Origin: Pseudooceanicola marinus
GTDB taxonomy: Bacteria; Pseudomonadota; Alphaproteobacteria; Rhodobacterales; Rhodobacteraceae
NCBI RefSeq assembly: GCF_002786295.1
Contig: NZ_PGTC01000009.1
Span: forward strand, 248,001 to 312,000
Direction of reading: 5' to 3'
DNA length: 64,000 nt
Shown here: in pieces, positions 8,512 to 28,092 of the stretch
Position numbering within the stretch: position 1 is the stretch's first letter
How the letters are laid out: the number at the start of each line of letters is the position of its first letter
The notes under the pieces: model-generated
Database searches by the model: none
The model's input: the letters and a program-made list of their open reading frames with translations, nothing else
Told to the model about the DNA's origin: nothing
Position numbers and translations under genes: made by a program

Positions 8512-11500
8512 TCAGTAATCCTTCTCGAAGAAGACGCCCAGCCCGGTGCCGCCGTCGGTATCGACGGAGCCCTTGGCGCGGATGTTGTCCGTCAGGTCGA
8601 GGTTGATCGACAGAGAGGTCTCGCCCTCTGCCGTGACCTCGGTTTCCGTGTAGACGTTTTCCGACAGATACTTGCCCGCGGTGAGCGAGGCCGAGCCATC
8701 GGAGTCGGTCGCCACGTCCAGGTTGTCCAGCCCGGTGCTTTCGCGCAGGCGACCCAGGACGCCGCCACCGCCTTGGCCGGTCAGCGTGGCGACTGCGGCG
8801 GCCAGCTGGGCGGCCTGCACCGCCGACAGCTCCGACAGGGGCCGGTCGAAGAAGAGGCGCGACAGGATCTCGTCCTCGGGCAAGCCGGGGTTGGAGGAGA
8901 AGGTGATTTCCGGTTCCGACGCCGTGCCGGAGATTCCGATCTGGTAGACGTAGCTGCCCGATTGCGAGGTGGCGACGAAGCGCAGGATCGGCTCGAAGCC
9001 GCCCGCCAGGCGCAGCTCGCCTTCCGACAGGTCGAGGCGCTTGGTGAGGATCGACAGGCGGCCGCGCACCAGCTCGAACTGTCCCACGGGGCGCGGATCG
9101 GAGGTGGTGCCGCCGACCGTCAGGTCGCCGCGCAGCTCGGCGTCGAGGCCGCGGCCGCGAATGAAGACCGAGCCGTCGGTGATCACCCGGATGTCGAGGC
9201 CGAGGCCCCGCGATCCGCCGCTGCCGGAGGAGACGACCGAGGCGCCATCGCCCGAGCCGGTCAGCCCGGCCCGGTCGCGCGTGATGCGGCTCGCGGCAGG
9301 CTCGGCCACATGGGTCATCTCGGGGATGGCTTCCTGGCCGCCGAAACCGCCGGAGGGCACGCGCACCTCGGTGTCCGTCAGGCCGATGCGGCCGGAGATC
9401 GCGCCATTGCCGGTCAGCGGGCCGGAGACGTCCAGCGTTCCGTTCAGCGTCGTCGTCAGCAGGCCCGCCTGGGTAAAGATCACCCCGTCGATGCCGACGT
9501 CGAGGCCCGCGGTATAGGGCGCCGAGAGGGCGAGCGGGCCGGAGACGGTGAGCCGGCCACCCTCGGCGGGGCGTGCCGACAGGTCGAGCCGCGCCTGGCC
9601 GCCGGACAGCTGCACGCTGCCCGAGATCCCCTCGATCACCTGGCTGAGGCTGGGGGCGATCAGGCGCCCGTCCGACAGGGTGATCTGGCCGGAGACCGAC
9701 GAAAGTGCCGGCTGGCCCGCGACCGAAAGATCGAACCGCGCCAGCCCCGCGACGGAGCGCGGCGCGACGAAGGGATTGGCCAGGCCGAGCGGGGCCGAGC
9801 CGCGCAGGGTGATGTCGACGGAGCCGTCAGGCCGCGCCACCAGACCCGACAGGGTCGCGTCGGAGCCGGCGGGGCCCGTCGCCTGGGCCGCGACCCGCAG
9901 CGCGCCGTCGGGGCCGGGGGCCACGTTGCCGGTGATTTCCAGCGGGCCGGAGAAACCGTCGGCCAGCCGTGCGACGTTGTCGAGGCCGGCGGAGAAATCC
10001 ATCTCGATCTCGCTGCCCGCCACGGTGCCCGAGGCGGAGGCATCCAGCGCGGTCGAGGCGACCTGCGCGGTCTCCACGGTCAGGACACCGTCGGGGGCCA
10101 GTGACAACAGGGCCGAAAGCGTCGTGTCACCCGCGAAAAGCGCGTCGATCTGCGGGTTGCCGATGCCGATGTTGCGCCCCTCACCACGCGCGTCGATCCG
10201 GTAGGCGCCCCTGTCGTCGGCGCTGACGTTGGCCGTCAGCTCCAACGGGCCGGCGGAGGCGCCCAGGGGGGCGGCGGAGTTGGGCAGCGTCAGGGCCAGG
10301 TCCAGCGCGGTGTCGGCGCCGGCAACGAGGCCCGAGGCGGTCAGGTCCAGCCCGCCCGCGTCCAGATCGGCGCGGCTGACGGTGATCCTTTCGCCGGCGA
10401 GGGTCACATCCGCGTCCAGCCGCGTCGGGCCGGTCAGCAGGGCGTCCACCGCCTCGATGCCGGTGCCGATGCGGTCGCCGCCACCCGAAAGCGTGGCGCG
10501 CAGGGCCTCGCCCTCGCTGGTCAGGCGGCCCGACAGCTCCAGCGGGCCGGCAGTGCCGCCGGTGAAGGTGGCGGAATTCGCCAGCCAGGCGCCGAAGTCC
10601 AGCGCCATCTCGCTGTCCGCGCCGGCCAGCGGCCCGGAGGCGGTCAGGCGCAGGGCGTCGTTCTCGATCCGGGCGCGGTCGATGCGCGGGGCGCCGTCGC
10701 CGGGCAGGGTCACCAGCGCGTCCAGCGACAGGCCCGAGGACAGCAGGTCGTCCAGCGCCTCGATCCCGAGGGCCAGGCGGTCGCCGCCGCCCTGGGCGGT
10801 CAGGGTCATCGCTTCGGGCGTCTGGGTAATGGCGCCCGCAACGGCGAAGGGCGCGGGATCGCCCGCAGCGCCCGTCAGCAGGTTGGCATCCGTCAGCGAC
10901 AGCTCATAGGTGATCTGGCCATCGTCGGAGGCCAGTCGGCCCTCGCCGGTCAGGGACATCTCGTCGGTGCCGATGGTCAGTTCCGACAGGGTGATGCCGG
11001 TCTCATCGCGGGTCAGGTCCAGCGCCAGCGTCGCAGGGGAAGCCAGCAGGGCGTCGGCCTGGGGGATGCCGGTGGCCAGGTTCTCGCCCGTGCCCTCGGC
11101 GGTGATGCGCCCGGTGCCGGCGGGCAGCTGAATGTCGGCGGTGACCGACAGATCGGCCTGGCCAGCCAGCTCCAACCCGGTGAGGGAGGCGAAGGCCGCC
11201 AGATCCGCGACCTCGGCACCAGCCTCGACGGTCAGCCCGGCCTGTTCGCCCGCCTCGGTGGTGCCGTCATAGCGCGCCGCGCCGGTCAGACGCAGGGCGG
11301 GGCCTTCGACCACCAGGTTCTCGATGCTGACCGGGCCTTCGCCAAAGGTGATGTCGGCGGCGCCGGTGATGCGGTTGCCCAGGGCCTCGGCCACGGCGGG
11401 ATCCTCGGCGGAGAGGCCCGAGGCCTCTAGCGCCAGGGCCAGGTCGCTGGCGCGACCCTGGCGCAGCGGGCCCGAAAGGCTCAGCGACAGGGTGTCGGCG

Positions 11501-12681
11501 GAGAAGCCGGTGGCGCGTGCGGCACTGGCATCCAACCGCGCCTCCATCTGGTTGGAATTGTCCCGGTCGAAGGTGGCGGTCAGTTCGCCCGAGGCCAACG
11601 AGAGGCCGTCGCCCATGGGCAGATCCAGCCGGTCGGAGCCGTCGGGCGCGGCCATCAGGCCCCGCAGGTCGAAGCTCTGCGGGCTGCCCTCGGCGTCCAG
11701 CGCCAGTCGCCCTTCGAGGTTCACCGAGGCCGAGCGAAGGCGGAACAGTTGCAGGTCCAGCGCGCCGTCAGCCGCGGCCGTGCCGGTGGCCGTCAGGCCG
11801 ATGTCGGCCCCCAGGAACTCGCGGTAGTCGGGCGCCAGCAGGGCGGTCAGGTCGCCGCCCAGATCGGCGGTGAATTCGCGCCCGCCATCGTCGCGGCCGC
11901 GCAGGGCCACCTGGCCGGTCAGCCGTTCCTCGCCATCGGTCAGCAGCAGCAGGTTCGCGTCGTAGTCGTCCAGAGGGCCGGCGCCGGCAACGGTCAGTTC
12001 GACCGAGGGGGTGCCCGGCAGCCCCATGAGGGAGGCCACCAGCCCGCCCTGGGGTTCGGAGGCGCTGATGTCCACCGCCAGGCGTTCGTCCTCGGGGGCG
12101 TAGTCGGCGGAGATGGCGATCTGGCCGGGCCGGTCGAGGCGGTTGATCGCCAGGTCCGTGGCCAGCGCGCCGCCGGCTAGGCTGGCCGAGCCGTTCAGCG
12201 ACAGTTCCGCGGCCTGGCCCACCACGGCCTCTCGCATGTCGAAACGGCCGATCGACAGCTCGCCGATGTCGATGGCGACCGGCAGGTCGGGAATGGCAAA
12301 GCCCGAGGCCTCGGGCGAGGGGGGGGTAGGCTCGCTTTCGGGCAGGCGGGTCAGGGTGATGCTGTCCGCCGACAGGGTGTTCACGTCCAGCCGTCCGCGC
12401 AGCAGCGCGGAGCGGTTCCAGTCCAGCGTGGCGCCTTCCAGGTCCAGCCAGATGCCGTCCTCATCCGCGATGGTCAGGCGCTGCATCGTGGCCTGCGACG
12501 ACAGCGCGCCCTCGAAGCCGGTGATGTCCACCGTCATGCCGTCCGAGGACAGCGCGTTCTGCAGGGTGCGGGTCAGGAAACCCTCGCCGTCGTCATCGGC
12601 CGAAGGGGTCTGCTGAGCCGCGGCGGGCGTCAGGGCGAGGGCGGCGCAGGTGGCCAGCGCAAGGGAGCGGGAAAAACGCAT
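8512..12681 (-). CDS. tamB: Translocation and assembly module subunit TamB
   Basis: Very long periplasm-spanning protein (1389 residues) of the AsmA/TamB superfamily, anchored in the inner membrane and partnered with TamA. It is implicated in outer-membrane protein insertion and in lipid transport between membranes. ATG 12681 is chosen because it overlaps the tamA stop by one base and gives a signal/anchor MRFSRSLALATCAALALTPA. The body is a long run of repeating beta-strands of the GDRLxxGxxxxDALL type, consistent with a beta-taco groove. The C-terminal DUF490 region includes LVRGRLSILTKRLDLSEGEL, YQIGISGTASEPEITFSS and a terminal GLGVFFEKDY. Co-transcribed with tamA. Confidence 0.93.
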   Translation of the reverse strand: MRFSRSLALATCAALALTPAAAQQTPSADDDGEGFLTRTLQNALSSDGMTVDITGFEGALSSQATMQRLTIADEDGIWLDLEGATLDWNRSALLRGRLDVNTLSADSITLTRLPESEPTPPSPEASGFAIPDLPVAIDIGELSIGRFDMREAVVGQAAELSLNGSASLAGGALATDLAINRLDRPGQIAISADYAPEDERLAVDISASEPQGGLVASLMGLPGTPSVELTVAGAGPLDDYDANLLLLTDGEERLTGQVALRGRDDGGREFTADLGGDLTALLAPDYREFLGADIGLTATGTAAADGALDLQLFRLRSASVNLEGRLALDAEGSPQSFDLRGLMAAPDGSDRLDLPMGDGLSLASGELTATFDRDNSNQMEARLDASAARATGFSADTLSLSLSGPLRQGRASDLALALEASGLSAEDPAVAEALGNRITGAADITFGEGPVSIENLVVEGPALRLTGAARYDGTTEAGEQAGLTVEAGAEVADLAAFASLTGLELAGQADLSVTADIQLPAGTGRITAEGTGENLATGIPQADALLASPATLALDLTRDETGITLSELTIGTDEMSLTGEGRLASDDGQITYELSLTDANLLTGAAGDPAPFAVAGAITQTPEAMTLTAQGGGDRLALGIEALDDLLSSGLSLDALVTLPGDGAPRIDRARIENDALRLTASGPLAGADSEMALDFGAWLANSATFTGGTAGPLELSGRLTSEGEALRATLSGGGDRIGTGIEAVDALLTGPTRLDADVTLAGERITVSRADLDAGGLDLTASGLVAGADTALDLALTLPNSAAPLGASAGPLELTANVSADDRGAYRIDARGEGRNIGIGNPQIDALFAGDTTLSALLSLAPDGVLTVETAQVASTALDASASGTVAGSEIEMDFSAGLDNVARLADGFSGPLEITGNVAPGPDGALRVAAQATGPAGSDATLSGLVARPDGSVDITLRGSAPLGLANPFVAPRSVAGLARFDLSVAGQPALSSVSGQITLSDGRLIAPSLSQVIEGISGSVQLSGGQARLDLSARPAEGGRLTVSGPLALSAPYTAGLDVGIDGVIFTQAGLLTTTLNGTLDVSGPLTGNGAISGRIGLTDTEVRVPSGGFGGQEAIPEMTHVAEPAASRITRDRAGLTGSGDGASVVSSGSGGSRGLGLDIRVITDGSVFIRGRGLDAELRGDLTVGGTTSDPRPVGQFELVRGRLSILTKRLDLSEGELRLAGGFEPILRFVATSQSGSYVYQIGISGTASEPEITFSSNPGLPEDEILSRLFFDRPLSELSAVQAAQLAAAVATLTGQGGGGVLGRLRESTGLDNLDVATDSDGSASLTAGKYLSENVYTETEVTAEGETSLSINLDLTDNIRAKGSVDTDGGTGLGVFFEKDY

Positions 12682-14543
12682 CAGAAGCTCTGTCCAATTC
12701 CGACATAGACCGAAACCGAATCCACCGAGCCGGTGACCGGCACGGCGAGATCGGCGCGGATCGGCCCGATGGAGGTGAAGTAGCGCACGCCGACACCGGC
12801 GCCGCCCTGCCATTCGCCGCCCGCGAAATCGGGATCGGCGGAGACATATCCGTAATCGACGAAGGCCGCCGCGCCCCAGCTTTCGCCGATCCGCGTGCGT
12901 AGCTCGGTCGAGACGGCGGCGAAGCCGCGCCCGCCGGTGGCGGTGTTGCCTGACCCGACGCCCAGCGACTGATAGCCCTGGCCGCGCACCGTGTCGCCGC
13001 CGCCCGACCAGAACAGCCAGTCTGCGGGCACCTCCTCGATCTCCGGGCCGGCGACCACGCCCATCTGAAGCCGTGCCGCCAGCACGAAGCGTCCCTCGGC
13101 AAAGCCGCGGTAGCCGCGCAGGTCGGCGGTGCCCAGTACGCCGCTTTCGGTATCCGACACCCCGAGGAAGGGCATCGCCGTCACCTCGGCATAGGCGCCG
13201 TCGGTGGGGTTGGTGCTGTTGTCGCGGTTGTCCCAGGTCAGCCCGCCGGTCAGCAGCAGGTGGGTGAAGTCGCGGGTGCCGTTGGCATCCTCGGTTTCCG
13301 AGATGCGGAAGCCCAGCTCGTAGTTGGCCGACAAGGTCTCGGTCAGGTAGCGGTCGACGCCCACCGAGGCCTCGGCGAAGGTCGAGATGTAGTTCGGCTC
13401 ATCCTCGCGCGCCAGGTCGAGGCCGAAGATCAGGCTGCGGTCCGGGCTGAGGAAGGCGGGGTAGGTGTAGGTGGCGCCCAGGGCATAGTCGATGCCGCCG
13501 GTCTCACCGCCGATGCCTGCCACCTCTGCGTCGAAGCGCAGCCGGTCGGCGGCGCCGGAGATATTGCGGTGCAGCCAGTAGCCCGACAGGGTCAGCCCGT
13601 CGGTAGTGGCGTATTCGATGCCGGCGCCCAGGCGGCGGGGCTTGGCGTCCTCCACCTCCAGCGTCATCGGCAGGGTGTTGTTGGGCCCGATCTCCTCGGC
13701 CTCCGTCACCACGGCGCTGGCGAAGGCGCCGGCGGTGCGCAGGCGGGACTCGGCGCGGTCGATCTCGGAGGGCGCATAGACCTCTCCCTCGGGGAGGCCC
13801 GCGATGGCGCGGATGCGCTCGGGGCGGACCGCGCTCATCCGTGCGGTTTCCGACAGCAGGGTCGGGCCGAAGGTCAGCCGGGGACCCGGGGCGATGGTGA
13901 AGGCCGCGTCGACGCGGCGGTCGGCGTGATCGGCGGTGATGCGTTGCTCGGTGATCTGGGCCTTGGCGTGGCCACGCTCGGCCCAGGCCGTGCGGCCCGC
14001 TTGGGCGGCCTGGCGCATGACGACGGTGCCGGCCGGGTCGCCGGTGGCGAAGCCCTCGGGCGGGCTGACGCCCTCGGGCAGGGGCGCGACGGATGTGGCG
14101 CCGAAGCTGAAACGCGGCCCGGGCGTCACGGAAATGTCGATCCGGTTCACCTGGGCGTCGCGGTCCAGCACCGACATCGAGGAGGCTTCGCGCCCGTCGA
14201 TGCGGATAGAGATCGCGCCGGAAAAATAGCCATCCTCGTAAAGAGCGGCCAGCAGCCGGCGGTAGTCGGCCTGAGCCGCTGCGATCAGTTCCTGCGCGTC
14301 GGTGGTGCCTTCGTCCTCGGCCGAGACCGCAAGAGAGGCCGCGCGCATCCGGCCCTCCAGATCCTCGTCGCCTGCAACGCTGACAGAGACATCGGCCGCC
14401 GACAGCGGGCCGGGCAGGGGCAGCGTCAGGGTGGCGGCCCCTAATGTCGTGGCCCAGAGCGCGGCGCGCAGGGCGCTGCGGCGGCCGGACCGTTGGCGGC
14501 GGGACGAGGCAGGTGCGGGGGCAGCGGGGCAGCGAGGCGTCAT
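12681..14543 (-). CDS. tamA: Outer-membrane TamA (BamA/Omp85 family)
   Basis: Omp85-type barrel of about 620 residues with N-terminal POTRA domains, partner of TamB. ATG 14543 is chosen because AGGAAAGG lies upstream and the product then has a basic n-region and a hydrophobic stretch (ALWATTLGAATLTLPLPG) ending at LSA. In-frame starts at 14588 (ATG) or 14675 (TTG) cannot be excluded. POTRA-like repeats span about residues 55–300. The barrel region has LSGYWLHRNISG, WDNRDNSTNPTDGAY and the Omp85 signature around GGDTVRGQGYQS. It ends in Phe (YVGIGQSF), as expected for a Bam substrate. The tamA stop and tamB start overlap as TGATG. Confidence 0.9.
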   Translation of the reverse strand: MTPRCPAAPAPASSRRQRSGRRSALRAALWATTLGAATLTLPLPGPLSAADVSVSVAGDEDLEGRMRAASLAVSAEDEGTTDAQELIAAAQADYRRLLAALYEDGYFSGAISIRIDGREASSMSVLDRDAQVNRIDISVTPGPRFSFGATSVAPLPEGVSPPEGFATGDPAGTVVMRQAAQAGRTAWAERGHAKAQITEQRITADHADRRVDAAFTIAPGPRLTFGPTLLSETARMSAVRPERIRAIAGLPEGEVYAPSEIDRAESRLRTAGAFASAVVTEAEEIGPNNTLPMTLEVEDAKPRRLGAGIEYATTDGLTLSGYWLHRNISGAADRLRFDAEVAGIGGETGGIDYALGATYTYPAFLSPDRSLIFGLDLAREDEPNYISTFAEASVGVDRYLTETLSANYELGFRISETEDANGTRDFTHLLLTGGLTWDNRDNSTNPTDGAYAEVTAMPFLGVSDTESGVLGTADLRGYRGFAEGRFVLAARLQMGVVAGPEIEEVPADWLFWSGGGDTVRGQGYQSLGVGSGNTATGGRGFAAVSTELRTRIGESWGAAAFVDYGYVSADPDFAGGEWQGGAGVGVRYFTSIGPIRADLAVPVTGSVDSVSVYVGIGQSF

Positions 14544-14973
14544 CGGGCGCGGGGCCTTTCCTGTCGGCACGAGGCCGGTGGTCGTCATCGGCGACGCCCG
14601 ACCGCGCCGGGGGCAGATCCCTGTCCCGCGCAGGATTGAACGGCGGGACGGCGCAGAGAGAGCATCAGGGAGCAAGCTAGTTTGATTGAGGGTAAATGGC
14701 CAGCTTCAGAGGGGCTGGAAGGTGCGGTGAAAGCGGAAAATCGCGGTGGTGGCGAGAGCGGTCCTGACCACGCAACCCAGAGTGTTCGCTTCGCCGTAGC
14801 GCGGGTGCCACATCGGGTGCGAAGCGGGCCGCGCAGGGCGGGAATACCGGACTTGCGGCCCGAAAACCGGGCTGACGCAGGTGACAAAAGCCGTCAGGCC
14901 GGGAAAAGTTATCTCCGGGACGGCGCTTTTTCGCCTATCCTACCTCGGAGTACAGATTCTGACCGGTGCGATT
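14544..14973. other. Divergent intergenic region, 430 bp
   Basis: This spacer separates tamA (leftward) from the cytochrome gene (rightward). Up to 14675 it could encode an N-terminal extension of TamA if an earlier start is used. A more AT-rich patch lies at about 14675–14700 and another at about 14925–14960, where promoters could sit. A distant inverted pair CGCTTCGC/GCGAAGCG is present near 14790–14825. Nothing firm can be assigned. Confidence 0.4.
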
Positions 14974-17900
14974 ATGCCAAAAGCAAGTTCTTCAGCCCGG
15001 CCCTTCTGGGTCATCGCCTGTCTCGGAGCCGCCCTGCCGGGTGGTGCCCTGGCCGAGCCCTTCGAGGCCGGCGCCTTCGACAGCTATCAGCCCGACATGG
15101 TTCGGGGCGAACGTTTGTTCCAGTTGGGCGCCTGCGCCTCCTGTCACCAGGATCCGGCCGCGGCGCTGGACCCGGCGGCGCCTCTTCTGGCGGGGGGGAT
15201 GAAGATCGACAGCCCGAACTACGGCCTGATCTCCGTGCCCAATATCACCGGCAGCGCGGCGGGCCTCGGGGACTGGTCCCGGGCCGATTTCCTCAACGCG
15301 ATGCTCTATGGCCTGTCGCCGGACGGGGGCGAGTATACGCCGCTCTTTCCCTATGAGTTCTATTCGGGGATGAAGCCCGAGCATGTGGTGGATCTGTTCG
15401 AATACCTGAAGGCCGAGGCGCCCAGGTCCGACCGGCCCAGCGAGGATCACGAGCTGACCCTGCGCTACCGGCTGAAACGGTCGAACCCCTGGCGCTATTC
15501 CTTTGAACCCGCGAGCTACGACGGCGCGGGCGACAGCCAGGCCGATCCGGTCGCCTGGGGGCAATACATTGTGGAAAACGTCGCCGCCTGCGGCAGTTGC
15601 CACACGCCGCGCAACTCGGCCTTCATCCTTCAGGAAGACCAGGCGCTGACCGGCGGGATTTCCGTGCTGGGCGAAGTCGCGGGCGACATCACGAAGGGGG
15701 CCGTCTCCGGCCTGGCGCCGGAAGATTTCGTGGCCCATGTGCTGGGCGATGGCATGGGGCTGGACCTGACGACGCCGGTCAAGGGGTCGATGGCGCGGGT
15801 CGCGGGGCAGCTTGGCCAGGCACCGGAAGAGCACCGGCAGGCGATCTTCCAGTACCTCGCGGACATGCCGGAGCTGCCGAAACCCGTGATCGAGATGGAA
15901 TGCGCGGCGCCCACGCCGCTGGTGCAGACCGCCTCGCCGGACCTGACGGCGCGGGTCGATGCCTATTTCAATTCCGACTGCAAGGCCTGCCACGCGCGGG
16001 GGGGATCGGCGGCGGCCCAGGCCACGTTGGTCTCGGCCGCCAAGACCGCCGCCGACAGTTCGTTGGTGGTGCCGGGCGACCCGGGCGCCTCGGCCCTCTA
16101 CAAGTCGCTGAACCGCATGCCCACGAGCCAGGCGGCGAGCGATGCCGACCGCGCGCTGATCGCCGACTGGATCGAAAGCCTGGCGGTCAACAAGGAGCTG
16201 CTGACGGCCGAGGTGAAGCCGCCGCCGCGTGACCCCAGCCGGATGCATGAGGGCTTTGCCGCCGAGTTTGCCGCCGTCCAGGGCCACCTGACCGCCCAGG
16301 ATCAGCTGGACCGTCCCTTCCTGCGCTACTTCTCCTTCGGCCATCTGGAAAACGGCCAGCTGCCGTGCCAGTCGATGGACGACTTCCGCATGCAGCACCT
16401 GTCGGGCTACGTGGCGGCGCTGAACAAGATGGTGAACTCCCTGTCGTGGGAGCCGCGCATCACCCGGGTCGAACCGATCGCCGAAGGGGCCTCGATCTTC
16501 GTCATCGACATCCGCGATTTCGGTTGGACGCCCTTCCAGTGGGAAGTGCTGGTCTCCGGCCAGATCCCCGGGATCGAGACGGCGCGTCCCTATCCCTACG
16601 GCATGGACCCGCAGGGCCTGAACGCCGACCCCAACCTGAAGATGCTGGCCTCGGTCACCGGGACGCAGGTGCCGGTGATGCGCGGCGACTGGTTCGTGTC
16701 GAACGCCGGTCTGCCCTTCACCTACAAGTTCATGCTGGGTCTGCCCGATGATGTCGCCACGCTGGAGGCCACGCGCCTGCGCGTCGACCGCATCGCCGAC
16801 ATCCGCAATTTCGACGTGATGCGGGCGGGCTTCCTCGAAGGGGCCTCGGCGGTCAGCCAGAACAACCGCCTGATCGAGCGGCTGGAACAGCCCGCGGGCG
16901 GCTACTACTGGACCTCCTACGATTTCGACCGCGGTGTCGACCCGTCGCGGCGGCTGAAGGAAACGCCCCTGGGGCCGGCGGCGGCCTTCCCCAACTCGCC
17001 GCATTTCGAGGAAGACGGGGGCGAGATGATCTTCTCGCTGCCCAACGGGATGCAGGGCTACTACCTGACCGACCCGGCAGGGGGCTATCTGGACAAGGGG
17101 CCGACGGCGGTGGTCTTCCTGAAAGATCCCAGCCCGATCTACGGCACCACCATTTCTAATGGCAAGGCCTGCATGGTCTGCCATACGCGCGGCCCGATCG
17201 AGGCCTATGACAACCTGCGCGAGGCGGTGGAGGCGACCGGGGCCGATGCGCTGACCCTGATGGCGGTGCAGCGGCTGCATCCCGAGGACGACGTGCTGGA
17301 GGCGGCCTATGCCGAGGATACCGACCGCTACCTGACGGCCCTGTCGCGCGCCGGCGCCGACATGACGATCATGGAAGGGCCGGGCCGGTTCCACCCCGAA
17401 CCCGTCACCCACACCGCCAGCGTCTATGCCGAGAACCTCGACCGCGACCTGCTGGCGGCGCAGTTCGGCCTGACCTGGGAGGCGTTCCAGCAACAGATCC
17501 TGTCCCTGCCGCGCCACAGCGAGGCCTTCGCCCGCGTCTCCGGCTGGCTGGCGGAGATCGACACCCGGGGCGAGGTGGAACGGCTGGATGTCGAACTGGC
17601 CTGGCAACAGGTGGCGGCGGGCCTCTACCTGACTTCGCCGCGTGGGCATCCGGGCGTCGACGCGCAGGAGATCCAGCAGCATCTGGCCGCCTATGTGCCG
17701 GGACATGCCGGCGCTGGCGCTGAGACTGGCACCGCCCCGGCCCAGCCGGTGCAGGCCGCCGCCCATGTGCCCGCGCCCGCGCCGAAACCCGTCGCGCAGG
17801 ATCGCCAGACCGTCACCAGCGCCCCCGGCGCGGTGAAGGCGGGCCGCCCTGGCCTGACCATCAACGTGGCCAACCCGCACCTTAAGGTCTGCGAGGGCGT

Positions 17901-18360
17901 CAGCTTCACCGTGCAGACCGACCAGGCCTGCCTGCTGGACGTGATCTATCCCGACACCTCCGTCGGCAGCTTCTTCCGCCTCAGCCCGGCGGCCATCGGC
18001 AACCCGGTGCTGCAACCGGGCGAGGTGCGCCAGGTGCCCCAGCCGGGACGCGAACTGCAATCGCATACGCCGTCCACCGGCGTCGATATCGCGGTGAACT
18101 GCTACCCGGGCCTGACCAGCTATGACCAGCTGGGCACCGACCTGATGAAGACGCTGGAGGACTACCAGCGCAGGGCGCCGACCCAGACCAAGAACTTCTC
18201 CGAGGTGGTCAGCACCGTGACCGAACAGACCCTGGCGCCGGCCCGGGAGGGCCAGCGCGATCCGCTGGCGGCGTCCCAGGTGCCGATCACCTCGGTGCTG
18301 CGGTTCACCATCGCCGAGGACCGCTCGGCGCTGGATGCCAACGGATCCTGCCTGCCGTGA
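14974..18360 (+). CDS. Exported tetraheme-type cytochrome c with C-terminal DUF4384-like domain
   Basis: Large protein of 1128 residues, predicted periplasmic. ATG 14974 gives a signal peptide (FWVIACLGAALPGGALA); an upstream in-frame GTG at 14881 would hide it. Four heme c motifs are visible: C54ASCH, C206GSCH, C336KACH and C733MVCH. The first two lie in cytochrome c-like folds (YGLISVPNITGS, YIVENVAACGSC) and the third in a short CXXCH domain. The fourth follows a conserved-looking region (GGEMIFSLPNGMQGYYLTD). After an Ala/Pro linker (about 905–955), residues about 960–1065 resemble DUF4384 (SFTVQTDQACLLDVIYPD), a domain often fused to bacterial caspase-fold proteases. A caspase gene follows 127 bp downstream. 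Substrate and redox partner are unknown. Confidence 0.72.
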   Translation: MPKASSSARPFWVIACLGAALPGGALAEPFEAGAFDSYQPDMVRGERLFQLGACASCHQDPAAALDPAAPLLAGGMKIDSPNYGLISVPNITGSAAGLGDWSRADFLNAMLYGLSPDGGEYTPLFPYEFYSGMKPEHVVDLFEYLKAEAPRSDRPSEDHELTLRYRLKRSNPWRYSFEPASYDGAGDSQADPVAWGQYIVENVAACGSCHTPRNSAFILQEDQALTGGISVLGEVAGDITKGAVSGLAPEDFVAHVLGDGMGLDLTTPVKGSMARVAGQLGQAPEEHRQAIFQYLADMPELPKPVIEMECAAPTPLVQTASPDLTARVDAYFNSDCKACHARGGSAAAQATLVSAAKTAADSSLVVPGDPGASALYKSLNRMPTSQAASDADRALIADWIESLAVNKELLTAEVKPPPRDPSRMHEGFAAEFAAVQGHLTAQDQLDRPFLRYFSFGHLENGQLPCQSMDDFRMQHLSGYVAALNKMVNSLSWEPRITRVEPIAEGASIFVIDIRDFGWTPFQWEVLVSGQIPGIETARPYPYGMDPQGLNADPNLKMLASVTGTQVPVMRGDWFVSNAGLPFTYKFMLGLPDDVATLEATRLRVDRIADIRNFDVMRAGFLEGASAVSQNNRLIERLEQPAGGYYWTSYDFDRGVDPSRRLKETPLGPAAAFPNSPHFEEDGGEMIFSLPNGMQGYYLTDPAGGYLDKGPTAVVFLKDPSPIYGTTISNGKACMVCHTRGPIEAYDNLREAVEATGADALTLMAVQRLHPEDDVLEAAYAEDTDRYLTALSRAGADMTIMEGPGRFHPEPVTHTASVYAENLDRDLLAAQFGLTWEAFQQQILSLPRHSEAFARVSGWLAEIDTRGEVERLDVELAWQQVAAGLYLTSPRGHPGVDAQEIQQHLAAYVPGHAGAGAETGTAPAQPVQAAAHVPAPAPKPVAQDRQTVTSAPGAVKAGRPGLTINVANPHLKVCEGVSFTVQTDQACLLDVIYPDTSVGSFFRLSPAAIGNPVLQPGEVRQVPQPGRELQSHTPSTGVDIAVNCYPGLTSYDQLGTDLMKTLEDYQRRAPTQTKNFSEVVSTVTEQTLAPAREGQRDPLAASQVPITSVLRFTIAEDRSALDANGSCLP

Positions 18361-18487
18361 GGCGGCACGGGACGAAAACAAGCCTTTGCGGCGCTGCCGG
18401 TGGCACCGGCGACGCTCGTGCCATTTGCGCCCAGACGACCTGCCGCCGGTTCTGCCCCGGTGGTCCGAAGACCATGGAGAGAGACGG

Positions 18488-21055
18488 ATGACCCCGCTGC
18501 CCGCCGCCCGCCGCCTTCTGATGCGGCCTGTCCTTGCCCTTGCGGCGCTGCTGCTGGCCCCCTTCGCCGCGCCCGCCCAGGCCCAGGATGTGGCCTTCAA
18601 GAACTTCTCGGAGGTGCGCGTCACCGGCCCCGTCACCCGCGAGGCCAGCGTCGACAATTACGCCCTGATCGTCTACAACTCGACCTACGACGACGATGCG
18701 ATCAGCGACCTGGCGGTGACCGAGCTGGACGCAAAGGCGATGCAGAAGCTGTTCATCGACATGGGCTATCCCGAAGAGAACATCATGCTGGTCGGCGACG
18801 GCACCAAGCAGGAGATCGAGGACCAGGTCTATTTCTTCGCCGAGAAGCTGGATGCCGATAGCACCGTCGTCATCTACTACTCGGGCCACGGGATCACCTT
18901 CGAGGGCGATCCGTCGAACTACATCGTGCCGGTCAACATGACCGCCAGCGCGCCGGGCGCCGAACGGGCCACGCGCGAGGCCTTCTTCAAGCGCCGCGCG
19001 GTGAACTTCAATCGCGACATCCTGGGGGTGGTGAAGGCCGCGGGGCCGAAGGGCGTGGTGGTCTTCTACGATGCCTGTCGCAACTCGCCGCTGGCCTCCG
19101 CCGATCCCACCAAGGCCGTGGGCCAGGAACAGGGGTTCGTGCCGGCCAAGGTCGAGGGCACCGCGATCTTCTATTCCGCCCGCAACGGCGAGACCTCGCT
19201 GGCGGCCCTGTCGACGGACGATGACGTGCGCCTGTCGGTCTATACCCGCGTTCTGGTCACCCAGCTGTCGCGCAACCCCACCATCCGCCTGTCGGACCTG
19301 CACCGAGAGCTGCAATCCAGCGTCGCCCGCATGGCCCGCAACAAGCCCGGCGGGTCCCATTCACAGAACCCGGTGATGGAAAATGGCCTCGATTACTCGC
19401 GCTCTGAACGCAACGAGTTCTGCCTGGCAGTGGCCAATATCAACGGCGCCCCGGGCTGCACCGGGCCGGGCGGCGTGCCCGCGCCGATCGCCCCGGGGGC
19501 GCTGGATGCGGTCTGCACCTCGGCGCCCATTCGCGGCGCGATCGACGCCATTGCCACCATCGAACAGGCCCGGGCCGAGCGCGACCGTTACATCCAGTGC
19601 GATGACCTACGCGAGCAGATCAACGCCCGCATCGCCACGCTGGCCTGGGAGGAGACCAAGGCCGAGAACACCTGCGCCGCCTACCGCGCCTATCTGACCT
19701 TCCACGAGGGCAGCGCCCATACCGAGGCCGCCCGCGCCGCCGAGGCAGAGGCCTGCCGCCAGATGACCCGGGAGGAGATCAACGCCCATGTCGTGCGCTG
19801 TGAAACCACCGCCGCGCGGCTCGGCTCCGTCTTCTCCACCGTCGACGCCGCCACCCTGGCCGAGGCCGACCAGAGCTGCGCCATTGCCGCCACCGCCGAT
19901 ACGGTGGACGGTCGGGCGATTGCCTTCAGCCGGGCCCTGATCCTGCTGGAGCAGGGGGAACAGGCGCGCGGGCTGGACGCGTTGAAGTTTGCCGCCGGCA
20001 CCGTGCCCCGCGCGGCGCTGAAGCTGGGCGACGTGTTGTCTTCGCCCGAGATCCCGCTGCCGCAGCGCGACCTGAACGAGGCGCTTTTCTGGTACGAACG
20101 GGCCGCCAACTCCTCCACCATCTCCTCCGAGGACCAGCGCCGGGCGCTGTTCCGGGTGATCGAGCTGCAGAACGAGATGGGCAATCCGGCGGCGGCGATG
20201 GATGCCTATGCCCTGCTGATCAACCGCGCCAGCGAGGCGCGCCAGGTCATGGCCCACCTGCGCCAGTTCCCAGAAGGGCAGGCGGGCAAGCTCTCACCCT
20301 CGGACGTCTACGAGATCCTGTTCTTCCGCTTCCAGGACGGCAACCTGGCCTACCAGATCGGCGAGGCCTGGGAGACCGGCGTGCATGGCGGGCAGAACCT
20401 GGAACAGGCGCGGATCTGGTACACCCGCGCGCAGGAACGCGGCAACATGCGCGCCCAGGCGGCGCTGGAGCGGGTCGGCGCGGGCGGCGGTGGCGCGGTG
20501 GACGCCGAAAGCCTCTGGTCCGAGCTGATCTCCTGCCTGCAACAGGCGGAGCAGTCCCTCAGCGAGGAAAGCAAGCTGGAGAAGGGGGTGGACTGCACCG
20601 ACAGCTGGCTGACCCGCGCAGGCCGTGACGACCACCGCCGACCGGAGGTCGAGGAACACCGCGAGACCCTGCAGATGGATCTGGCGGCCATTGCCCGCCC
20701 GGCCAGCGGCGGGGGCAGCCTCGACCAGTTCCGCCAGTCCTCCGACCCCTGGGACGGGCGCAACGGCAGCTATGCCGGCCAGCGCGGCTATACCGACAAC
20801 GGGCGCCGCAGCCCCTCGGTGGAATGCAAGAAACGCTATGATTTCACCGCCGAGGTGGACAATGGCACGATCACCTTCTGGTCCGATGGGCGGACCTTCA
20901 CCGGCCAGATCGACCTTGCCGGCAATATCTCCCTGGATCGCAACGGCCTCAGCCCTAGGTCGCGCACCGATTTCTGGATCCAGGGGCATGTCGGCAATGC
21001 GGCGATGTACTCTGGCTATTGCGGCAACGGCTATTTCCGCCTGAGCGGGTATTGA
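18488..21055 (+). CDS. Exported caspase-fold (C14/metacaspase-like) protease with Sel1-like repeats
   Basis: Protein of 855 residues. ATG 18488 is preceded by GGAGAGAG and gives a clear signal peptide ending APAQAQD. The caspase-like domain covers about residues 50–310, with catalytic His134 in YYSGHG and Cys197 in VVFYDACRNSP. Helical, TPR-like segments with several cysteines follow (about 340–520). Sel1-like repeats then occur around ALFWYERAANSS and QARIWYTRAQERGNMRAQAALERVG (about 525–665). A small C-terminal beta domain (about 775–855) begins SVECKKRYDFTAEV and ends YCGNGYFRLSGY. Caspase-like proteases cut after Lys/Arg or Asp; specificity here cannot be read. Sandwiched between the DUF4384-bearing cytochrome and an M14-like gene on the same strand, suggesting a joint periplasmic function. 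Confidence 0.82.
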   Translation: MTPLPAARRLLMRPVLALAALLLAPFAAPAQAQDVAFKNFSEVRVTGPVTREASVDNYALIVYNSTYDDDAISDLAVTELDAKAMQKLFIDMGYPEENIMLVGDGTKQEIEDQVYFFAEKLDADSTVVIYYSGHGITFEGDPSNYIVPVNMTASAPGAERATREAFFKRRAVNFNRDILGVVKAAGPKGVVVFYDACRNSPLASADPTKAVGQEQGFVPAKVEGTAIFYSARNGETSLAALSTDDDVRLSVYTRVLVTQLSRNPTIRLSDLHRELQSSVARMARNKPGGSHSQNPVMENGLDYSRSERNEFCLAVANINGAPGCTGPGGVPAPIAPGALDAVCTSAPIRGAIDAIATIEQARAERDRYIQCDDLREQINARIATLAWEETKAENTCAAYRAYLTFHEGSAHTEAARAAEAEACRQMTREEINAHVVRCETTAARLGSVFSTVDAATLAEADQSCAIAATADTVDGRAIAFSRALILLEQGEQARGLDALKFAAGTVPRAALKLGDVLSSPEIPLPQRDLNEALFWYERAANSSTISSEDQRRALFRVIELQNEMGNPAAAMDAYALLINRASEARQVMAHLRQFPEGQAGKLSPSDVYEILFFRFQDGNLAYQIGEAWETGVHGGQNLEQARIWYTRAQERGNMRAQAALERVGAGGGGAVDAESLWSELISCLQQAEQSLSEESKLEKGVDCTDSWLTRAGRDDHRRPEVEEHRETLQMDLAAIARPASGGGSLDQFRQSSDPWDGRNGSYAGQRGYTDNGRRSPSVECKKRYDFTAEVDNGTITFWSDGRTFTGQIDLAGNISLDRNGLSPRSRTDFWIQGHVGNAAMYSGYCGNGYFRLSGY

Positions 21056-21135
21056 GGCGCGCCGATGACGCGGCCCAAGAACTGCCCTCCAGGCGCTTGG
21101 AGGGCAGCCAGACAGCAGAAAGCGAGACGACCCAG

Positions 21136-22494
21136 ATGACCCCGTCCAAGGATTCGGCCCGGCCTCTCCCTTCGTCGCGACGCCGGTTTGGCCCGGCGGC
21201 CCTGGCGTGCCGCCTTTCCGTTCTGTCGGCCCTGGGCCCGACCGCCAGCGCCATGGTGCTGCCCCTGGCGCTGGCCGCAGGCGTGCCTGCCTGGGACATG
21301 GCCCGCGCGCAGGCGGCTGGCGCCGCCTCGCTCGTGCCGCTGACCTCGGCGGGGGAGACGCCCGCCGTCCTGCGTCCCGTGGCCCGGCCCGCCGAATTGG
21401 TCGGGACCCCGGCCTCTGCCACCACCAGCCTGGCCGCGGCCGCCGTGGAGGCCCCCGATCCCGAAAGCCGCAGCCTGGCGCGCTCGGTCATGGGCGTGCT
21501 CTCGACCACCACCGCGCCCGGGCGTGACGGTGTGGTGGCCGCAGCCCTGGCCGTCGAAAGCGCCCTGAACCCCGTGGCCGAGGGGGTGTCCCCCGCCGAA
21601 GCCGTCGCCGCCGTGACGCCGCTGCGCCCCCGCGCCCGGCCCGAGGGGCTGGCCGCCACGCCGGCCGCCTGGTTCAGCAAGCCCGATGCGCCCTGCCTGC
21701 CGGCGGCGGGCTTTCCGGATCCGGACGTGCGCCGCAACCTGGCCAGTTTCCAGGCCGATGCCGGCCTCTGCCTGTCCCGCGCGGGCTTCACCGAACATGG
21801 CCGCACCTGGCAGCTGACCGTGGTGCGCAACCTCTCGGCCCGGCGCGGGCCGGTCTGGGCGGTACTTCATGACAATGAAAACGCGGCCTTCGACAGCGCG
21901 CTTTACGCCGTGCGACGCTACGGTGGCGCGCTGGTCGCGGTGGAAGCCGGCGAAAGCCGCACCTTCCAGGGGCAGGACCCGAACCGCAACTTCTCCCTCT
22001 CCGCCTCCAGGGCGGCAACCTGTCGGGACATCTCGGCCAAGCCCACACCTGGCTTCACACGCGCGATCACCAGCTTCTTCTCCGACCGTTACCCGGTTCT
22101 GACGCTGCACAACAACGACGAGGGCTATTCCGGCGCGGGCGGGCGCGGGCATATCTCGGCCCGGCGCAGCTCAGCCTCGATGACGGGAATGATGACGCCC
22201 ATGCCGCAGGGCGCCCTGTCGGACGAGGACAACGCGATCCTGCTGGCCGACACGCGCCCCTTTGCGCAGAGCCCAGCCTCGCGCAAGGCGACGGCGGCCT
22301 TCCATGCCCAAGGGGTCAACGTGATCTACGAACACGTCCGGCCGGAGCGGAACGATTGCTCCTTCTCCTTCTTCACCCGGATGAACGGGCTGGGGGACTA
22401 CTACAATATCGAGGCGCAGTTCGGTGCGGGCGAGGCGCAGCGGCGGATGGTCGATGTGCTGATGGCCTACCTGGGGATCGCACCGTTGCGCTAG
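21136..22494 (+). CDS. Exported M14-like zinc metallopeptidase/deacylase domain protein
   Basis: Protein of 452 residues. ATG 21136 gives a long basic N-region followed by a hydrophobic segment ending near ARAQAAG, probably a signal peptide. Residues about 60–190 are Ala/Pro-rich and contain two similar blocks, LRPVARPAEL (about 79) and LRPRARPEGL (about 163). The C-terminal domain shows an M14 carboxypeptidase pattern: H245-D-N-E248 (HxxE zinc motif), D281PNRNF286 (like the substrate-binding NRN of carboxypeptidases) and His325 in LTLHNNDE as third ligand. YEHVRPERNDCSFSF near the end could supply the catalytic acid. Family assignment is by motif only. It starts 80 bp after the caspase gene and is probably co-transcribed. 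Possible substrates are peptidoglycan peptides or protease products. Confidence 0.62.
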   Translation: MTPSKDSARPLPSSRRRFGPAALACRLSVLSALGPTASAMVLPLALAAGVPAWDMARAQAAGAASLVPLTSAGETPAVLRPVARPAELVGTPASATTSLAAAAVEAPDPESRSLARSVMGVLSTTTAPGRDGVVAAALAVESALNPVAEGVSPAEAVAAVTPLRPRARPEGLAATPAAWFSKPDAPCLPAAGFPDPDVRRNLASFQADAGLCLSRAGFTEHGRTWQLTVVRNLSARRGPVWAVLHDNENAAFDSALYAVRRYGGALVAVEAGESRTFQGQDPNRNFSLSASRAATCRDISAKPTPGFTRAITSFFSDRYPVLTLHNNDEGYSGAGGRGHISARRSSASMTGMMTPMPQGALSDEDNAILLADTRPFAQSPASRKATAAFHAQGVNVIYEHVRPERNDCSFSFFTRMNGLGDYYNIEAQFGAGEAQRRMVDVLMAYLGIAPLR

Positions 22495-22562: not shown

Positions 22563-23795
22563 TCAGAACTCGAAATACTCGAAATGCAGTTTGCGGCCGA
22601 AGCGTTTGCGCAGGGCGTCGCGCACCATTGGCGGGCCGCAGAAGAGGACGGCGCGCAGGTCCGCAGGCGTTTCTTCGGGGGCTTGCCAGCGGCCCTTCTC
22701 CTTCGAGGGATGCAGGGTGAAGGAGAAGTTGGGCACCCGCGCCGCTGCCGCCTCCAGCTCATCCAGGGCCAGGGCCTCGTCCCGGGTGCGGACCAGATAG
22801 ACCATCTCCACCTCGCCCTTCAGATCCTCGGGCAGGGAGCGGACGAAGCTGAGGAAGGGCGTCACCCCGATCCCGGCGGCGATCCACAGCTGGCGCCCGT
22901 CGCGGGCGGGGTAGCGGAAGTGGCCATAGGGCCCTTCGACGGTCAGCCGGTCGCCCGGTTGCAGGTCGGGCAGCCGCCCGGTGAAATCGCCCAGAGCCTT
23001 GATGTTGAACTGCAGCTCTCCGTCACGGCCTTCGCCGCCGGAAATGGAGAAGGGATGCGCCTCGCGCAGGCCGGCGCGGTTGGCGCGGATATAGGCGAAT
23101 TGCCCGGCGCGGTGTTTGAGCGGTCGTCCCAGGGGGCGGGCACGGATGCCAGTCACGTCGCCCAGGCGTGTGACCTCGACCACCTCGTACTTGCGCGCGC
23201 AGATCATCCGCCAGGCGAAGCTGACGATCCACAGCAGCGCACAGATCGCGCCGAGCGCGGCAAAACCTTCGGCCAGGGTTTGGTAGGTCACCGGCATCTT
23301 CATGTTGAAGGCCAGGTGGAAGGTGGCCGCGCCGAAGGGCAGCAGCATCAGGTAGTGCGTCCGCTTCCACCAGTGATAGGGCAGGCCGTGGCCGCGGATC
23401 TTCACCCGGCGCAGGGCGCTGACCAGACCCAGCACGATCAGCCAGTTGAAGGCCAGCTCACCCCCCTCGATCGCCGCCTTGCAGCTGTCGTCGCAGGGGT
23501 AGAGGCGCCCGGAGAAGTCCGGCGGGCCGATCCAGTGCAGCGCGGCGGCGATCAGCGCCAGGTAGCCGAACTGCCGGTGTTGTAGGAACATCTTGTCCAT
23601 CCCGCCGAAGGCCCGTTCGATGGGCCGCACCCGGGCGCCCAGCAGGATGTTCAGCGCCATGGCGGCGTAGGTCACCAGCCCGGCATAGACCGCCCCGATG
23701 GCGTCCAGGTCGCCGGTGGGGTTCACCGCCAGAAGCACGGCGCCGACGATCAGCACCAGCATGATCTGCGGCAGCAGCCGCCTTGCCCAATCCAT
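22563..23795 (-). CDS. Ferric-reductase-like transmembrane flavocytochrome
   Basis: Protein of 410 residues combining a heme-binding membrane domain with a ferredoxin-reductase-type FAD/NAD(P)H domain, as in bacterial NOX-like and ferric reductase proteins. Hydrophobic helices fill residues about 8–200. Candidate heme ligands are in MFLQHRQFGYLALIAAALHW and the RTHYLMLLPFGAATFHLAF helix. FAD contact is suggested by REAHPFSISGGEG and the NAD(P) site by IAAGIGVTPFLSF and LFCGPPMVRD. It ends in Phe, as this family often does. It would pass electrons from cytosolic NAD(P)H across the membrane to iron, oxygen or another acceptor. Monocistronic; the relation to the cytochrome cluster upstream is only proximity. 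Confidence 0.85.
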   Translation of the reverse strand: MDWARRLLPQIMLVLIVGAVLLAVNPTGDLDAIGAVYAGLVTYAAMALNILLGARVRPIERAFGGMDKMFLQHRQFGYLALIAAALHWIGPPDFSGRLYPCDDSCKAAIEGGELAFNWLIVLGLVSALRRVKIRGHGLPYHWWKRTHYLMLLPFGAATFHLAFNMKMPVTYQTLAEGFAALGAICALLWIVSFAWRMICARKYEVVEVTRLGDVTGIRARPLGRPLKHRAGQFAYIRANRAGLREAHPFSISGGEGRDGELQFNIKALGDFTGRLPDLQPGDRLTVEGPYGHFRYPARDGRQLWIAAGIGVTPFLSFVRSLPEDLKGEVEMVYLVRTRDEALALDELEAAAARVPNFSFTLHPSKEKGRWQAPEETPADLRAVLFCGPPMVRDALRKRFGRKLHFEYFEF

Positions 23796-24854: not shown

Positions 24855-26282
24855 ATGACCGACAATCGGTTCTTTGACGAGATGCTGACCGGCGCCGGCG
24901 ATGCGCGGGTCCCCTATTCCGAATACGCCAAGTGGTTTTCCGGCGAGGACCCCAAGGTCCTGCTGAAGAAATCCAACGAGGCCGAGACGTTCTTTCGACG
25001 CATCGGGATCACCTTCAATGTCTATGGCCAGAAGGAGGCGCAGGAACGCCTGATCCCCTTCGACATCGTGCCCCGGATCATCGCCGCCCGCGAATGGCGC
25101 CTGCTGGAGAAGGGCATCGAACAGCGGGTGCGGGCGCTGAACGCCTTCCTGGCCGACATCTATCACCGGCAGGAGATCATCAAGTCCGGACGCCTGCCGG
25201 AGCATATCATCTCCCGCAATGACGCCTTCCTGCCGCAGATGGTGGGCATGACGCCCCCGGGTGGGGTCTATACCCATATCGTCGGCACCGACCTGGTGCG
25301 CACCGGCGAGAACGAATTCTACGTGCTGGAAGACAACGCCCGCACGCCCTCGGGCGTCTCCTACATGCTGGAGAACCGGGAAACGATGCTGCAGATGTTC
25401 CCCGAGCTCTTCACCAAGATGAAGGTGCGGCCCGTCTCCGGCTATCCGGCCGAGCTGCGCCGGTCGCTGTCGGAATGCGCGCCGCCCAACTTCGACCGCG
25501 CGAAGCCGCGGGTGGCGGTGCTGACGCCCGGCATCCACAATTCGGCCTACTTCGAGCACAGCTTCCTGGCGGACCAGATGGGCGCCGAACTGGTCGAGGC
25601 GGGCGATCTGCGGGTCGTGGACGGCAAGGTGCAGATGCGCACGACCATGGGCTACAAGCCGATCGACGTGATCTATCGCCGTGTCGACGACGATTTCCTC
25701 GATCCGCTGTCGTTCAACCCCGACAGCATGCTGGGCGTGCCGGGCATCATGGATGTCTACCGCGCCGGCAACATCACCATCGCCAACGCCCCCGGCACCG
25801 GGATCGCCGACGACAAGGCGCTGTATTCCTACATGCCCGACATCGTCGAATTCTACACCGGAGAGAAGGCCATCCTGAAGAACGTGCCGACCTGGCGCTG
25901 CTCGGAACCCGACAGCCTGCAGTACGTGCTGGATAACCTGAATGAGCTGGTGGTGAAGGAGGTGCATGGCTCCGGCGGCTACGGCATGCTGGTCGGACCC
26001 GCGGCCTCGAAGAAGGAACTGGCGGAGTTCGGCGCCAAGCTGCGCGCCAAGCCCGACAACTACGTGGCCCAGCCGACGCTGGCGCTGTCGACCGTGCCGA
26101 TCATGACCAAGAAGGGGCTGGCGCCGCGCCACGTGGACCTGCGGCCCTATGTGCTGGTGGCGCCCGGACGGGTGCATATCACGCCCGGTGGGCTGACCCG
26201 CGTGGCGCTGAAGGAAGGCTCGCTGGTGGTGAATTCCAGCCAGGGCGGCGGCACCAAAGATACCTGGGTTCTGGGGGACTGA
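24855..26282 (+). CDS. Circularly permuted ATP-grasp protein (Anbu operon)
   Basis: Cytoplasmic protein of 475 residues of the COG2308 / DUF404–DUF407 type. Diagnostic stretches are VPYSEYAKWFSGEDPKVLL, FFRRIGITFNVYG, EFYVLEDNARTPSGVSYMLE, VDVIYRRVDDDFLDPLSF-like text and LVVKEVHGSGGYGMLVGP. These correspond to the permuted ATP-grasp fold used to make carboxylate–amine (peptide-like) bonds. It is the first gene of the conserved set ATP-grasp / alpha-E / transglutaminase / Anbu, with only 5 bp to the next gene. The product may be a small peptide or tag acted on by the other members; the natural substrate is not known. Confidence 0.93.
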   Translation: MTDNRFFDEMLTGAGDARVPYSEYAKWFSGEDPKVLLKKSNEAETFFRRIGITFNVYGQKEAQERLIPFDIVPRIIAAREWRLLEKGIEQRVRALNAFLADIYHRQEIIKSGRLPEHIISRNDAFLPQMVGMTPPGGVYTHIVGTDLVRTGENEFYVLEDNARTPSGVSYMLENRETMLQMFPELFTKMKVRPVSGYPAELRRSLSECAPPNFDRAKPRVAVLTPGIHNSAYFEHSFLADQMGAELVEAGDLRVVDGKVQMRTTMGYKPIDVIYRRVDDDFLDPLSFNPDSMLGVPGIMDVYRAGNITIANAPGTGIADDKALYSYMPDIVEFYTGEKAILKNVPTWRCSEPDSLQYVLDNLNELVVKEVHGSGGYGMLVGPAASKKELAEFGAKLRAKPDNYVAQPTLALSTVPIMTKKGLAPRHVDLRPYVLVAPGRVHITPGGLTRVALKEGSLVVNSSQGGGTKDTWVLGD

Positions 26283-26287
26283 CGACA

Positions 26288-27229: not shown

Positions 27230-27233
27230 CATC

Positions 27234-28040: not shown

Positions 28041-28092
28041 AGTGACGCTGCCCGATTCCCTCGCGGGCCTGCTATCGGAGCTTTGACGCCAG

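Follow-up and report, generated by a model that had tools for sequence, protein, structure and literature searches.

We analysed a 64,000-nucleotide stretch of contig 9 of the 4.5-Mb Pseudooceanicola marinus genome, hereafter called the window. It encodes a tetraheme c-type cytochrome, a caspase-fold protease and an M14-fold metallopeptidase, next to a NOX/ferric-reductase-type oxidoreductase. The original prediction described the first three as rightward neighbours encoding secreted proteins, and read the caspase, M14 and DUF4384-like folds from motifs. Open reading frames and motifs confirmed the three neighbours, with gaps of 127 bp (cytochrome–caspase) and 80 bp (caspase–M14). All three proteins have signal peptides and look exported, and the fold readings proved correct. 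The M14 and NOX genes are convergent, 68 bp apart. The features are as follows (aa, amino acids).

14974..18360, + strand: tetraheme c-type cytochrome, 1128 aa, with a signal peptide and three parts (open reading frame, four CXXCH motifs, Pfam Cytochrom_C at E 1.2e-10, homologues)
15046..16173, + strand: N-terminal arm of the cytochrome, with three CXXCH motifs (residues 54, 206 and 336), resembling the cytochrome subunit of membrane-bound fructose, alcohol and aldehyde dehydrogenases
16246..17688, + strand: middle domain of the cytochrome, with one CXXCH motif (residue 733) and 39 invariant columns
17839..18327, + strand: C-terminal DUF4384-like beta sandwich of the cytochrome
18488..21055, + strand: caspase-fold (C14) protease, predicted to be exported, 855 aa, with one weak Sel1-like repeat and a C-terminal beta domain (Pfam C14 at E 4.3e-21)
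21136..22494, + strand: M14-fold metallopeptidase, predicted to be exported, 452 aa, with a Pro/Ala-rich stalk
22563..23795, − strand: oxidoreductase of the NOX/ferric-reductase type, with haem b, FAD and NAD(P)H (Pfam Ferric_reduct plus FAD and NAD domains; 8qt6)

The three rightward genes are the local version of a larger cluster that is widespread in alphaproteobacteria and combines a membrane electron-transfer enzyme, a haem protein and caspase-like proteases, with export predicted throughout. A search with the cytochrome core, using one genome per species, found 432 relatives (455 stretches matching the pattern); the window core is 98% identical to the Pseudooceanicola marinus core in this search. 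The best 80 were kept, and these loci (L numbers; genomes have G numbers) are therefore biased to the query's kin. Neighbouring genes were labelled with hidden Markov models made from loci typed with Pfam (E <= 1e-5) and spot-checked with Pfam, and distances were measured between gene midpoints. The pairs L050/L033, L123/L037 and L152/L116 are duplicates. Fourteen loci are cut by contig ends; their missing traits were treated as unknown on the tree described below, and they still count in the 80 loci and in the order sample.

A C14 gene lies within 8 kb in 70 of the 80 loci. This number rises to 74 when CHAT, which also has the caspase fold, is included; the four CHAT loci without C14 were identified by Pfam (L053 and L071) or by likeness to L053 (L054 and L121). 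NOX is near the cytochrome in 76 loci (73 within 8 kb, and L049–L051 slightly beyond the cut), OmpA in 73, and a trypsin-like protease in none. Six loci have neither C14 nor CHAT nor another of these proteases, and two of the six are contigs shorter than 6 kb. About one C14 locus in 80 would be expected by chance (89 C14 matches in ~107 Mb from 22 of these genomes, or ~0.013 per 16 kb), in an estimate that includes the clusters' own C14 matches and ignores the clustering of caspase genes and the kinship of the genomes. When labelled genes within 6.5 kb are considered, exactly the order NOX–cytochrome–OmpA–C14–C14 on one strand is found in 43/80 loci. The genes follow one another closely: of 177 downstream gaps, 141 measure at most 20 nt and 42 are exactly −4, as counted from first-start frames, which understate the gaps. 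NOX is accompanied by a protease in 19 of the 22 taxon groups, spanning Rhizobiaceae, Stappiaceae, Chelatococcaceae, Methylopilaceae, Xanthobacteraceae, Devosiaceae, Pleomorphomonadaceae and Rhodobacterales. In the nearer relatives of the cytochrome, caspase, NOX and OmpA accompany it far more often than chance would allow; across the order the association is looser, with a caspase near 15 of 37 loci. The conserved co-occurrence that had been predicted therefore holds for the cytochrome and the caspase, as well as for NOX and OmpA, which the prediction had not listed. It does not hold for the triad as a unit, since M14 is near only 6/80 loci.

Next, we examined the parts of the cytochrome. Sequences were aligned together with those of the window: 58 of 94 cytochromes (A1), 55 of 56 M14 proteins (A2), 25 of 32 caspases (A3) and 20 of 94 core homologues (A4). 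The arm has an electron-carrying subunit as its homologue: it resembles the dehydrogenase cytochrome subunits 7w2j, 8gy2 and 8gy3 over residues 25–376 in sequence and 42–299 in fold. Unlike these subunits, it is joined in one protein to a fourth haem domain and to a DUF4384-like domain, and the triad contains no dehydrogenase gene. The middle domain matches no Pfam or NCBIfam model at E <= 1. Many of its 39 invariant columns (32 in the wider set) are charged or aromatic. Its predicted structure has pLDDT values mostly above 90, with 54–62 at residues 711–730, immediately ahead of the CXXCH motif.

The C-terminal domain of the window cytochrome scores 12.4 bits with PF14326 (DUF4384), below the cut-off of 27, and the relative P0008 has no match. 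More distant relatives pass this cut-off, and the profile probability is 74–80%. In the four common-type operons tested (L061, L065, L067 and L073), the second caspase has DUF4384 above the cut-off in 4/4, and the cytochromes score 24.8–26.4 bits, slightly under it. The move of DUF4384 onto the cytochrome had been proposed as a local event; this part of the prediction falls, since Rhizobiales relatives have the same core with DUF4384. In the planctomycete protein P0047, a caspase fold and the cytochrome core are on one chain. P0047 may be an inactive caspase, because its His motif reads GQG.

A short motif, KNFSEV, occurs twice in the window. At 18190–18207 it lies in the low-confidence cytochrome tail (residues 1073–1078), where KNFSE[VI] is present in the window and the seven closest relatives shown, and not in the next 16 rows. 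At 18599–18616 it forms residues 38–43 of the caspase, right behind the signal peptide, and KNF.EV is found in 26/26 aligned caspases. The motif is also present in P0032, which is trypsin-like and has the same C-terminal domain.

The window caspase scores 76.1 bits with Pfam C14 (cut-off 21.4), and 48.9 bits with NCBIfam NF047832 (EACC1-associated caspase), below the cut-off of 140. His134 (18887–18889) and Cys197 (19076–19078) are intact and are invariant in the 26 aligned rows. The His–Cys dyad is intact in 151 of 155 caspases (L033–L125 plus the window). Some second caspases of Ensifer lack one dyad residue, with R for H or G for C (L067 14434–15957 and L108 14417–15937), so that an intact caspase is in some cases paired with a probably inactive one. 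In L040 (2744–4358), a 225-aa frame matches only the C-terminal beta domain of the caspase and lies directly before an M14 relative; the sole C14 match of this genome (G025) is on a different contig.

The protein encoded at 22563–23795 is, by its sequence, of the NOX/ferric-reductase type. Its closest solved relative is 8qt6 (E 7.7e-36 over residues 43–400), with the kin 8qq7 and 8qta; we take these to be SpNOX. The window protein shares with them two His pairs, H-x13-H and H-x12-H, and FAD and NAD domains. The pairs H73-x13-H87 and H147-x12-H160, whose spacings of 13 and 12 are those of NOX, are kept in 85–86 of 86 sequences, and the HPF, GxGxTPF and CGP motifs in 84–85. FAD_binding_8, FAD_binding_6 and NAD_binding_1 are above the Pfam cut-off. 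Pfam also matches Ferric_reduct, and a simple hydropathy scan marks only three stretches, against the six haem-holding transmembrane helices expected of the superfamily. SpNOX-type relatives reduce O2. Unlike them, the window protein is encoded beside a predicted periplasmic cytochrome, and for this reason its acceptor may not be O2.

The protein encoded at 21136–22494 matches no Pfam or NCBIfam family at E <= 1, and is a divergent M14 relative by fold and motifs. It has the M14 fold, and the HxxE...H zinc ligands, the NR motif and the catalytic Glu, which is probably E399, are invariant in 56 aligned rows. It shares 15% identity with Csd4, the D,L-carboxypeptidase of Helicobacter pylori (4wcl), and many other carboxypeptidases are within 1 Z. 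Among 198 genomes of the window's family, a credible M14 gene is present in three, including that of the window, and a fourth match covers the stalk only.

How far does the protease association extend beyond the closest loci? In the family sample (the same 198 genomes), there are, among the matches listed, 12 further places that match beyond the arm. Five are arm-fused cytochromes, and 5/5 have NOX and a caspase. The other seven are shorter cores (768–872 aa, two CXXCH motifs), and 7/7 have a trypsin-like protease and OmpA, with neither NOX nor arm; they form one clade on the tree. Two long frames of 1178 and 1186 aa (G128:C15:4419-5417 and G107:C17:64710-65651) match the cytochrome over the N-terminal arm only, being other arm fusions, and were left out of this reading.

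In the order sample, 39 of 297 Hyphomicrobiales genomes have the core, and 37 loci of 35 genomes were read; G591, G585 and G597 (already among the 80) and G602 (a weak partial match) were left out. The loci of the first three (L067, L056 and L095) all have NOX and a caspase, and counting them changes the 15/37 caspase loci to 18/40. NOX is near three of the 37, all arm-fused and with a caspase. In six caspase loci and four protease-less loci, the arm is encoded by a diheme gene of its own; in the six, this gene belongs to the same gene run. One of these split-arm caspase operons (L126) has the order cytochrome c', diheme cytochrome, C14, C14, core and OmpA, its first gene (15874–16302) matching PF01322 at E 7.5e-30. 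In L147 and L149, core proteins of 703–715 aa lack any CXXCH motif, and a separate diheme cytochrome gene lies directly upstream in both. Cytochrome c' is usually linked to nitric oxide and stress.

A tree of 127 cores, built by a quick method and having many open forks and some long branches, was used to count trait changes, with contig-cut loci excluded from the counts. One change is counted for NOX, one for arm fusion, seven for caspase presence and eight for protease class. All NOX loci on the tree are arm-fused (83/83), and NOX never occurs with an unfused core. NOX thus appears to have been acquired on about one occasion and to have remained for the most part with the cytochrome and the caspase, and on this tree the core seems to have persisted while the protease came, went or was swapped.

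We propose, with a probability of roughly 0.4, that the cluster is an extracytoplasmic redox–protease module, of which the window contains the Pseudooceanicola form. The NOX-type protein would take electrons from NAD(P)H in the cytosol and, by way of FAD and two b haems, deliver them at the outer surface of the inner membrane. The cytochrome arm would then accept these electrons and hand them to the middle domain. The gene order, the homology of the arm and the arm fusion of every NOX locus on the tree are the grounds for this path. The middle and DUF4384-like domains would serve as a platform for exported proteases, usually of the caspase fold, and the activity or substrate choice of these proteases would depend on the envelope redox state. 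The platform is proposed because four peptidase types lie beside the core (C14, CHAT, trypsin-like in seven loci, and M14 including L141), because DUF4384 is on second caspases and near the cut-off on cytochromes, and because of P0047. In most relatives, the OmpA-family protein would anchor the set to peptidoglycan. Pseudooceanicola has no OmpA gene next to the cluster; there, a carboxypeptidase-like M14 enzyme would have joined, perhaps acting on peptides or peptidoglycan stems. The gene content and its conservation, the intact catalytic residues and the fold matches are observed; we infer export, the electron path, physical contact, redox gating and the substrates. The cluster as a whole suggests, without proving it, a joint action of electron transfer and proteolysis, and the redox control of proteolysis put forward in the original prediction would be part of it.

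Several observations weigh against this proposal. Partners of the trypsin type can act without thiol chemistry. In the window, the NOX and cytochrome genes lie on opposite strands, and the neighbour models label no OmpA gene there or within 8 kb in L046–L051. Four of the 75 NOX loci among the 80 have no protease (L055, L059, L064 and L068, L059 being a 6-kb contig). Seven arm-fused loci of the order sample, forming one clade, have neither NOX nor protease, although three of them are cut by contig ends. In that sample, 22/37 core loci lack any of these protease classes within 8.7 kb, and the core can therefore do without one. Moreover, as NOX and arm fusion each change once on the tree, they provide one independent pair, too few to test the covariation of NOX and protease.

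The protease-less loci and the repeated changes in caspase presence would fit a core that is itself an enzyme, a haem oxidoreductase, whose proteases are maturation or quality-control partners or independent envelope proteases; the conserved charged and aromatic columns of the middle domain are consistent with this as well. We consider it rather unlikely, in view of the pairing with C14, CHAT, trypsin-like and M14 peptidases, the DUF4384 on both cytochrome and caspase, and the joining of caspase fold and core in P0047, even though the His motif of the latter is GQG. Alternatively, the NOX–cytochrome chain might be a matter of upkeep, keeping the catalytic Cys of the caspase, or disulfides of its partners, reduced in the oxidising periplasm with no signalling, as MsrQ feeds MsrP. 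Consistently, each of the eight NOX loci in the family and order samples is accompanied by a cysteine (caspase-fold) protease, and both NOX and arm are absent from the seven trypsin-paired loci. However, those seven are a single clade, 12 of the 15 order-sample caspase loci lack NOX, and transfer from haem c to a thiol is unusual, which together make upkeep quite unlikely. Least probable, and in our judgement very unlikely, is iron or oxidant handling, in which a ferric reductase and the cytochrome would spread electrons to Fe(III) or H2O2 and the caspases would be co-regulated stress genes. The Pfam name of the membrane part, Ferric_reduct, and a siderophore-interacting protein gene after the cytochrome in L054 point this way; against it, this gene is the sole iron-related neighbour met, in an analysis with no systematic search for such genes, and the SpNOX-type relatives use O2.

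The M14 gene of the window could be a chance passenger in the operon with no part in the system. This is a real possibility, which we hold to be somewhat less probable than its opposite. All six M14 loci among the 80 are in the window's clade, and short M14 relatives (~290 aa) are present in Roseovarius and others. On the other hand, the order cytochrome–caspase(s)–M14–NOX is kept in 6/6 members of this clade, and outside it, in L141, an M14 relative directly follows the core gene with a 4-bp overlap.

A further reading is a bacterial cytochrome c–caspase switch, in which electrons from NOX would set the redox state of the cytochrome, which in turn would hold or free active envelope caspases, with KNFSEV possibly being a shared docking strand in the Pseudooceanicola clade. 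We regard this reading as unlikely. Alphaproteobacteria are the class of mitochondrial origin, and such a switch, if true, would parallel apoptosis as an independent development, not necessarily an ancestral one.

What activates a bacterial caspase outside the cytoplasm? Exported caspases are common in alphaproteobacteria, and to our knowledge neither a trigger nor a substrate has been described for them. A conserved operon with a transmembrane electron donor and a multiheme cytochrome is a candidate trigger, and it offers a haem domain without a family model. Culturable Ensifer, Shinella, Rhizobium and Pseudooceanicola provide tractable genes for this question. One parallel is MsrPQ, in which a haem-b membrane protein supplies electrons to the periplasmic methionine sulfoxide reductase. 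Both systems have a haem-b membrane protein and a periplasmic partner, but the partner in MsrPQ is not a protease.

We found no NOX–cytochrome–caspase cluster described in the literature searched. In the available part of its text, Asplund-Samuelsson et al. (2012; PMC3501461) report OmpA in 14 metacaspase operons, operons with multiple metacaspases, and a conserved protease/protease-inhibition operon in four Rhizobium strains. Like the present cluster, these are operons of alphaproteobacterial caspase homologues with OmpA among the partners; unlike it, they have, as far as that part of the text goes, no NOX, multiheme cytochrome or core domain, and the paper's text does not contain the word cytochrome. 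A 2019 survey (PMC6426788) describes, in the part available, QC pseudo-orthocaspases of Rhizobiales with a trypsin-like domain and DUF4384. The caspase fold, trypsin-like domain and DUF4384 are thus also combined in alphaproteobacteria there, but in a single polypeptide with a Gln–Cys dyad, whereas the cluster has His–Cys caspases, separate genes and haem proteins. Neither "cytochrome" nor "OmpA" occurs in a 2016 aquatic-metacaspase paper or a 2021 cyanobacterial-orthocaspase paper, and a 2020 review, its reference list included, mentions cytochrome c solely for plant mitochondria.

Two further gene groups flank the cluster in the window. At 8512–14675 on the − strand, divergent from the cytochrome gene, are an Omp85/POTRA protein (Pfam) and a 1433-aa partner, which we take to be TamA/TamB-like. 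At 24855–28863 are four genes, presumably a set of the ATP-grasp, alpha-E, transglutaminase and NTN-type protease kinds. In L037/L123, L119, L046–L048, L056, L058 and L160, the cytochrome–caspase cluster has relatives of some of these four genes, or of all four, beside it.

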